From NCBI GenBank assembly GCA_030445695.1, contig JASUTF010000010.1, positions 1 to 29,673 of the forward strand: 29,673 nucleotides of DNA, read 5' to 3'. Position 1 is the stretch's first letter; the number at the start of each line of letters is the position of its first letter. The translations under genes and the position numbers were made by a program. This document shows, piece after piece, positions 7,887-16,218 of the stretch. Source of the DNA: Candidatus Iainarchaeum sp. (lineage in GTDB: Archaea; Iainarchaeota; Iainarchaeia; JAADDC01). The notes under the pieces were generated by a model. It did not search any database, was not told where the DNA came from, and saw only the letters and a list, made by a program, of their open reading frames with translations.

Positions 7887-7940
7887 ACCATTTCATGGTG
7901 GCCGACGGTGTATGCGGCACTCGCCTTCGCTCGGCCGCAT
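7886..7940. other. Two hairpins immediately 5' of tRNA-Leu
   Basis: CACCAT-TTC-ATGGTG (7886-7900) abuts the tRNA 5' end and reuses its first base. A second inverted repeat pairs ATGCGGC (7912-7918) with GCCGCAT (7934-7940) around a 15-nt loop. If the tRNA promoter lies near 7983-7993 (an AAAATATT-like element on the minus strand), both hairpins fall in the precursor leader. They could influence RNase P processing, or simply be GC-rich spacer. Confidence 0.4.
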
Positions 7941-8027
7941 TCCCCATTGTACTTTCCAACCCTTGAATACCTGCGCAGCGAATATTTTACTGTGAAGTGA
8001 CGGTTAAAAACGGGTCGTTCTGCACGC

Positions 8028-15132: not shown

Positions 15133-15153
15133 GACGAAGGTGCATAATCTACT

Positions 15154-15426
15154 GGGCGGGCAGGCCGGGGGGTTAGCGGTCCCCTGTAACCGGAAATCCG
15201 CTTATGCCGGGGCCGATGCCTGCGGGGCGGCGGATTTCCGCGCTCCGTTGCCCTGCCGGTGACCGACGAAGGCCTGTCCTGCCGGGTGGTCGGGCCGGGT
15301 GAATCGGCCAGGCCCGGAAGGGAGCAACCGTGGCCCGGTCCGGTCATGCTGGCAGGGTTGCAGGCCGGAGGGTAGCCGGTAGGGTGGCGGGGCTGTCGGT
15401 GTCCGTCCACCCGCAGGTGCCCGCCC
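15154..15426 (+). ncRNA. ffs: Signal recognition particle RNA (7S RNA)
   Basis: About 273 nt of GC-rich sequence with the archaeal SRP RNA architecture. GGGCGGGCA (15154-15162) pairs with TGCCCGCCC (15418-15426) to close the molecule (helix 1). The Alu domain has the CTGTAACC turn motif near 15182-15190. Helix 8 is unmistakable: GTGAA at 15299-15303, CAGGCCC before a GGAA tetraloop (15316-15319) and GGGAGCA after it, the SRP54-binding asymmetric loop. The RNA scaffolds SRP19 and SRP54 for co-translational targeting to the membrane. Exact ends may differ by a few bases. This fills most of the 500-bp stretch between ftsZ and the next gene. Confidence 0.95.
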
Positions 15427-15441
15427 ATTCATGGTGATTGC

Positions 15442-16002
15442 ATGCGCCTGTGGTGGTATGTGCTCCTCGGAGCGTCCTTTCTCGTTCTTCTTGCCAGTTT
15501 TCCGAGCGGTCAGGAGGACTGCGTGACGGTCAATGCCCTTGGCTACGACGGCGTGTCCGGCGTGCTCGTCCCCCTGCGATTCTGTGCTGTTCCCGGCGAT
15601 GGCAGCGTTTATATCGATGCCGGACACGTTTACGGCGATTCCTTCCAGAGGGCTGTCCAGACGGCAATCTCTGTATTCAAACAGAGGTATAGATCCCCTG
15701 ACGTATCCGTTCTTATCCGTGTTCACGGTGCCCCGGAATACCTTGACGGGCGGTCCGTGGCCCTCGCCACGTATGCAGGTATGTTCTCCGTGGTTTTTGG
15801 TTATGATCCATCGATGTATGCGTTCACGGGCGACCTTTCTCCAGACGGCTCCATTCTCCCCGTCTCCTACGTCCGGGAGAAGGCATCCGCGTTCGAAGGC
15901 CCCGTTGTCGTGCCGCAGGGCAACTGCGGAGACGGGCTGATCTGCGTGTCCGACGTTTCAGATGTCGAGGAGCTCATCGCTCAAAAAGGGTTTAAAGGAT
16001 AA
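15442..16002 (+). CDS. Small membrane-anchored stand-alone Lon-type (S16) protease domain
   Basis: A 186-residue protein. Residues 4-20 are a hydrophobic anchor or signal peptide; the rest fits only the proteolytic domain of Lon. The stretch ending YLDGRSVALATYAG aligns with Lon's PKDGPSAG, placing the catalytic Ser at 105. MYAFTGDLSPDGSILPV aligns with Lon's AMTGEITLRGQVLPI, and REK places the catalytic Lys at 147, 42 residues after Ser (43 in E. coli Lon). No AAA+ domain is present. Cysteines 27, 48, 162 and 168 would suit disulfides outside the membrane. Archaeal stand-alone Lon-like serine proteases are known but usually larger. GGTGA at 15433-15437 is a ribosome site. The gene starts 15 bp after the SRP RNA with no TATA box visible. 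Confidence 0.72.
   Translation: MRLWWYVLLGASFLVLLASFPSGQEDCVTVNALGYDGVSGVLVPLRFCAVPGDGSVYIDAGHVYGDSFQRAVQTAISVFKQRYRSPDVSVLIRVHGAPEYLDGRSVALATYAGMFSVVFGYDPSMYAFTGDLSPDGSILPVSYVREKASAFEGPVVVPQGNCGDGLICVSDVSDVEELIAQKGFKG
15990..15997 (+). promoter_or_regulatory. Likely TATA box for the tRNA-Asn transcript
   Basis: GTTTAAAG overlaps the last codons of the Lon-like gene and predicts initiation near 16020. No AT-rich box occurs between there and tRNA-Asn at 16125, so the precursor should carry a leader of about 100 nt that contains the tRNA-like element. Confidence 0.45.
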
Positions 16003-16033
16003 CTCCACGTATTTGCTATGCCTTCTCGTTGGT

Positions 16034-16109
16034 GCCCGGGTAGCTCAGGGCCAGGTTCTCTGGCCGCGCGAGCGCGGGTGGGATCTTCGATCCCACGCAC
16101 GTCCGGGCT
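16034..16109 (+). ncRNA. Unclassified tRNA-like structured element upstream of tRNA-Asn
   Basis: The element starts with the same acceptor and D-stem strand as tRNA-Asn: 21 bases at 16028-16048 repeat exactly at 16119-16139. GCCCGGG (16034-16040) can pair with TCCGGGC (16102-16108). GCTC (16043-16046) pairs with GAGC (16070-16073) and encloses a perfect hairpin GGCCAG-GTTCT-CTGGCC (16049-16065). A second hairpin, GTGGGATC-TTC-GATCCCAC (16078-16096), holds a T-loop-like TTCGATC. There is no anticodon arm and no canonical T-stem next to the acceptor, so it is not a normal tRNA. It could be a degenerate tRNA copy, a regulatory leader or a small RNA. Confidence 0.45.
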
Positions 16110-16124
16110 GTTGGGGGTGTTGGT

Positions 16125-16197
16125 GCCCGGGTAGCTCAGTTGGTAGAGCGGCCGGCTGTTAACCGGCAGGTCCCAGGTTCGAGTCCTGGCCCGGGCG
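16125..16197 (+). tRNA. tRNA-Asn (anticodon GTT)
   Basis: A 73-nt canonical tRNA with acceptor stem GCCCGGG/CCCGGGC (16125-16131 with 16190-16196) and discriminator G16197. The D-arm is GCTCAGTTGGTAGAGC, the anticodon loop CTGTTAA with anticodon GTT at 16158-16160, and the T-arm CCAGG-TTCGAGT-CCTGG. No intron and no encoded CCA. It follows the tRNA-like element by 16 bp. Confidence 0.97.
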
Positions 16198-16218
16198 CTC
16201 ATTCTCTCAACACACTTG

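Follow-up and report, generated by a model that had tools for sequence, protein, structure and literature searches.

Casposons, the Cas1-encoding transposons of archaea and bacteria, generate target duplications with a median length of 15 bp, and several of them lie at the ends of tRNA genes that stay intact; they encode Cas1 and PolB, have terminal inverted repeats of 25-602 nt, some of which hold palindromes, and overlap only the 3' end of the tRNA, by 4-7 bp (PMC4046053). MITEs are short, non-coding, dispersed multicopy elements that form hairpins, possess matching terminal inverted repeats, duplicate their target and depend on an enzyme supplied in trans (PMC10969869). In the long-duplication subgroup of IS1202, the target duplications span 16-28 bp and relatives target defined sites (dif); these elements are 1.5 kb long, carry an rve-type transposase and end in inverted repeats of 24-26 bp (PMC10132070). 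Dada elements, which are eukaryotic DNA transposons, target tRNA genes, including the TAGCTC sequence of the A-box, insert within the gene, duplicate 6-7 bp and encode a DDE transposase (PMC3706591). Viruses and genomic islands of 9-23 kb bring their own att copy via a tyrosine integrase, and the insert is then flanked by an intact tRNA and a partial copy (PMC9897764).

The element described here resembles each of these systems and misses some defining features of each. It shares with casposons a duplication of ~15 bp (+1 to +15 on the 5' side of the tRNA, from -15 to about +4 on the 3' side) next to an intact tRNA, but it contains no genes, no Cas1 was found in its genome, both tRNA ends are used, and the 15 bp lie inside the tRNA. 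It is short, non-coding, dispersed and hairpin-forming like a MITE, duplicates its target and would likewise need an enzyme in trans, but the 5' elements lack matching terminal inverted repeats and tRNA ends are strictly targeted. The long duplication at a defined site recalls the IS1202 subgroup, whereas the element is far shorter and no rve match was found in its genome, G000. Like Dada, it targets tRNA genes, but at their ends, with a longer duplication and no encoded transposase. The partial tRNA copies are reminiscent of those left by viruses and islands; here, however, a single family of ~100 bp is accompanied by a copy of each different tRNA's own end. We found no published description of such a family in the open-access literature. 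We assign a probability of roughly 0.8 to the reading that, judging from sequence comparisons, this is a non-coding mobile insertion element built of hairpins, belonging to a family that inserts at tRNA gene termini.

The window, that is, the whole stretch of 29,673 nucleotides analyzed, is contig C13 of G000, a Micrarchaeota MAG of 664 kb in 29 contigs that is 88.6% complete. The 21-bp sequence GTTGGTGCCCGGGTAGCTCAG occurs at 16028-16048 and, without a single difference, again at 16119-16139, where it forms the 5' end of tRNA-Asn, in agreement with the original prediction. In a direct-repeat scan of tRNA ends, this repeat scored 21, compared with a median of 6 and a 95th percentile of 10 for non-cognate comparisons. 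The tRNA-Asn(GTT) gene itself is sound according to ARAGORN, and Rfam RF00005 matches it with 74.1 bits over 16125-16197. The locus has the following parts:

15991-15996, + strand: TATA-like box TTTAAA of the tRNA-Asn gene, supported by the promoter survey and by conservation of AAAAAGGGTTTAAAGG in the G004 empty site
16028-16048, + strand: copy 1 of the duplicated target, corresponding to tRNA-Asn -6 to +15 (repeat, duplication profile and G004 empty site); 16034-16048 is +1 to +15, the part common to all 5' copies
16049-16124, + strand: predicted inserted hairpin element, 76 bp up to the tRNA start, 70 bp without the 21-bp duplication
16049-16065, + strand: terminal hairpin 1, GGCCA-GGTTCTC-TGGCC, alpha type (covariation at 4/5 pairs)
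16067-16076, + strand: short GC hairpin 2, weakly supported (76.9% of cells paired)
16078-16096, + strand: hairpin 3, GTGGGATC-TTC-GATCCCAC, then the conserved GCAC (covariation at 7/7 pairs)
16097-16109, + strand: element tail GCACGTCCGGGCT, family consensus CRTCCGGYC, the source of a chance "acceptor" pairing
16119-16139, + strand: copy 2 of the target, forming the 5' end of the intact tRNA-Asn
16125-16198, + strand: intact tRNA-Asn(GTT) (ARAGORN, Rfam; cloverleaf in the joint fold)

An archaeal SRP RNA is located at 15153-15427 (141.5 bits), just 5' of this locus, and the gene order SRP RNA, exported protein of no assigned function, tRNA-Asn is conserved among congeners.

The same arrangement extends beyond the single locus originally predicted, to about 20 tRNA genes of the genome, 3' ends included. 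A DNA search of G000 detected further copies of the element, with a common layout in which the 5' end of a tRNA is followed by the end hairpin, a short GC hairpin, hairpin 3, GCAC and then the same tRNA in its complete form. The host tRNAs of the 5' inserts vary (Asn, Gly, Ile, Ala, Arg, Pro, Thr and Leu), and every insert is paired with the end of the tRNA beside it. From five copies we built a covariance model, R1, which retrieved 14 copies in G000 at E <= 0.001, 12 of these beside an intact tRNA gene and two at contig ends with tRNA 5' sequence, as well as further copies elsewhere in the archaeal family. Carriers number 8 among the 87 genomes of the class, all within this one family and including a sister genus with the same arrangement; at E <= 0.001, R1 had no match in 77 other genomes of the class. 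When all 38 tRNA genes of G000 were scanned for direct repeats of their ends, 20 had an insert with a duplicated end, with a 5'-end copy upstream of 12 genes and a 3'-end copy downstream of 10, after one extra 3' match above the threshold was left out as similarity to a neighbouring tRNA. Two genes, tRNA-Pro(CGG) and tRNA-Pro(GGG), have inserts at both ends. Fewer inserts with duplicated ends are present in G003, G001 and G004. By number of elements, G000 and G003 are rich and G005 is poor. The elements are ~70-170 bp long and non-coding, consist of hairpin modules combined as mosaics with variable tails, and are sometimes found in reverse orientation (C27). Rfam contains no family that matches the element, and phage and plasmid records yielded no match either; a scan of the genome collection gave Micrarchaeota MAGs, among them congeners with the same element, and otherwise scattered bacterial matches that we took as chance. 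A viral origin was considered and rejected, the two pattern matches in viral contigs being without tRNAs and apparently fortuitous.

The limits of the duplication are sharp. In the 5' set (n=12), the copy and the tRNA are identical in 11-12 of 12 loci at every position from +1 to +15, and identity drops to 5/12, the background level, at both -1 and +16. In the 3' set, identity is high from -15 to about +4 (limit +1 to +4), in a profile that includes one wrongly placed locus of ten, C14:26519. Compared with their own tRNAs, the 5' copies contain 3 mismatches in 180 positions, whereas permuted pairings had at least 20 (20,000 permutations); for the 3' copies, there are 11 mismatches, a value reached in 1 of 20,000 permutations. 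The limits match the mature tRNA ends very closely, and selection on the copies may have played a part. Several inserts in G001 adjoin the tRNA without a visible duplicate, which counts against insertion. An alternative is copying between tRNA loci: when replication stalls or a break is repaired at a tRNA gene, the template would be switched to an element that flanks another tRNA and then back again, so that filler DNA and a direct repeat remain and no dedicated integrase is needed. The mosaic structure with variable tails, the confinement of all copies to tRNA genes and the failure to find an integrase would fit such copying. Nevertheless, we consider it unlikely, given that switching by tRNA homology predicts chimeric acceptor arms and ragged limits, whereas the duplicated 15 bp are always cognate, even where the acceptor stems differ (Ile, Thr, Gly, Asn), and the limits are sharp at +1 and +15.

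Congeners retain empty sites. At tRNA-Asn of G004, alignment of the upstream flank continues as far as +15 and that of the tRNA side begins at -5; the resulting 20-bp overlap is what one expects if the site is empty and the target was duplicated on insertion. Empty sites are also present in G003, at tRNA-Asn and at tRNA-Thr; tRNA-Pro(GGG) of G004 has neither a 5' nor a 3' insert; and insert-sized differences in length between congeners occur at the Ala, Arg and Leu loci and at another Pro locus. Judged from these alignments, the locus arose by insertion with target duplication, not by decay, and the common 5' arm, which had been taken for a part of the element, is the duplicated target. Partial tandem duplication of the tRNA gene, or the decay that was among the original suggestions, accounts for a truncated tRNA 5' end preceding the gene, but it is extremely improbable given that the intervening sequence is an element that occurs at unrelated tRNAs, not a tRNA remnant, and that the copies end near +15 in 12 of 12 cases.

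The hairpins between the two copies, which include GTGGGATC/GATCCCAC and GGCCA/TGGCC, were correctly predicted: their folding z is ~ -2, and they show compensatory changes. In an alignment of 39 distinct copies, 93% of the cells pair, both-sided changes occur at 4 of the 5 pairs in helix 1 and at all 7 pairs in helix 3, and the covariation score is 0.536, compared with 0.169 after shuffling and <= 0.09 with slid partners, although these figures lean upward because the alignment was fitted to this very structure and in some of its rows the same element is read from the opposite strand. The covariation indicates that the hairpins are maintained, whether they function as DNA or as RNA, between which it does not discriminate. 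Classic terminal inverted repeats, suggested by comparison across copies, were discarded when a within-element test gave no support: in the twelve 5' elements, inverted similarity between one end and the other was not significant. By inspection, CATTTCATT-like sequences are seen at the ends of some 3' elements.

The tRNA-like character attributed to the element fared differently. The original proposal was a small RNA resembling a tRNA, or else a switch in processing that depends on competition between two GCCCGGG strands. The 7-bp GCCCGGG/TCCGGGC stem on which this idea draws does pair in the tRNA-Asn copy, but it does not recur in other copies: the elements pair with positions +1 to +7 of their own tRNAs no better than with those of swapped tRNAs (permutation p 0.81). 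Here, the stem results from a chance complementarity between the Asn acceptor and the family tail CRTCCGGYC. The D-stem-like pairing is likewise not a family trait, its partner being absent from 5 of 12 copies. Furthermore, the joint minimum-energy fold of the element and tRNA-Asn keeps the tRNA cloverleaf, RF00005 matches 16125-16197 only, and the element corresponds to neither the tRNA family nor any other family in Rfam. Conservation of the fold in relatives had been named as decisive, and G003 and G004 carry the orthologous tRNA-Asn without the element. Such an RNA is therefore very improbable.

The TTTAAA box is present as claimed, and it now lies at the usual distance from copy 1, not from the intact tRNA-Asn. 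Among the 12 loci with 5' inserts, a TTTAWA-like box precedes copy 1 in eight and the intact tRNA in one; such a box is also found upstream of 19 of the 24 tRNAs without a 5' insert. Because the tRNA promoter stands upstream of the duplicate, the 5' inserts probably lie inside the transcribed pre-tRNA leader, as originally suggested for tRNA-Asn. The element could instead be a structured RNA with a function in the leader or trailer, regulating how the tRNA is transcribed, folded or processed, and perhaps domesticated from a mobile element. The promoter position, the strong covariation of hairpins 1 and 3 and the fact that G000 and G003 both have an insert at the same tRNA-Gly all point in this direction. 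However, presence at orthologous tRNAs varies among congeners, both tRNA ends are used, at times in reverse orientation, and the tRNA-Gly element of G003 is closer to the tRNA-Asn copy than to the tRNA-Gly copy of G000; moreover, palindromes can show paired changes without any RNA role. We regard such a functional leader or trailer RNA as quite unlikely.

Under the preferred reading, a mobile element inserting at tRNA termini, an integrase acting in trans would make a staggered cut of ~15-24 bp, nicking the DNA close to the mature tRNA end and again in the D- or T-arm. The element would be joined between the nicks, and fill-in repair would duplicate the target, so that the tRNA remains whole and the host can tolerate the insertion. 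An element inserted on the 5' side would become part of the transcribed pre-tRNA leader, from which RNase P could still release a normal tRNA. The hairpins most likely are recognition structures for mobility, as DNA or as RNA. An integrase that measures ~15 bp from a point close to the mature tRNA end would explain why the duplications are cognate and sharply limited, why the tRNAs are intact and why empty sites exist. More tentatively, and at somewhat less than even odds, we propose an archaeal mobile system that consists of a minimal hairpin element (RNA or DNA) and an integrase that measures ~15 bp into any tRNA gene from its mature 5' or 3' end, and that has thus colonized half of the host tRNA genes without breaking them.

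The search for this enzyme covered four families in MAGs that are 87-92% complete. Cas1 and Phage_integrase (tyrosine recombinase) had no match in G000, G001, G003 or G004, and rve and Y1 transposase had none in G000, G001 or G003; no autonomous longer copy or parent insertion sequence was seen. Another congener, G002, encodes a Cas1 protein (318 aa; L295, on G002:C80), which is preceded by a CRISPR-associated protein of 485 aa and followed by a Cas2-like protein. A casposon was considered and rejected: the Cas1 search found none in the carriers, and the Cas1 gene of G002 sits with Cas2 and the CRISPR-associated protein.

If the preferred reading holds, insertion that is strictly targeted to tRNA ends and preserves the genes has occurred in very small archaeal genomes, at about half of the tRNA genes, and has placed extra hairpins in many pre-tRNA leaders. 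It points to an enzyme that measures a fixed length from tRNA termini; such an enzyme would be relevant to the evolution of Cas1 and casposases and attractive for integration at safe sites. Caution in annotation is also called for: in such MAGs, partial tRNA copies should not be mistaken for split tRNAs, tRNA-like RNAs or pseudogenes.

Several other loci show related arrangements. On the 3' sides of Val, Pro, Glu and Ser tRNAs of G000 (L097, L098, L099, L094 and L039), there is a second subfamily, which has CATTTCATT/AATGAAATG close to its two ends and in which CTTCGNG is conserved ahead of the duplicated tRNA 3' end. Five tRNA genes of G001 (L159, L160, L161, L162 and L126) have in common a hairpin mosaic of ~123-175 bp in reverse orientation, which adjoins the tRNA 5' end, with differing tails and no clear target copy. 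At G000:C4:1-122 (L041) and G000:C11:30938-31092 (L040), the contigs end inside an element or tRNA 5' end, and the two loci have the same promoter flank over ~50 bp ahead of copy 1; it seems that either a larger unit including the promoter was duplicated or the assembly broke on the repeat. Finally, in the window itself, the leader of tRNA-Leu CAA (7887-8010, - strand) contains the hairpins ATGCGGC/GCCGCAT and ACCATGAAATGGT, which directly adjoin the tRNA start, and the nearest TTTTTAA box is ~120 bp upstream; this leader is probably an older or different insert with a decayed target copy.
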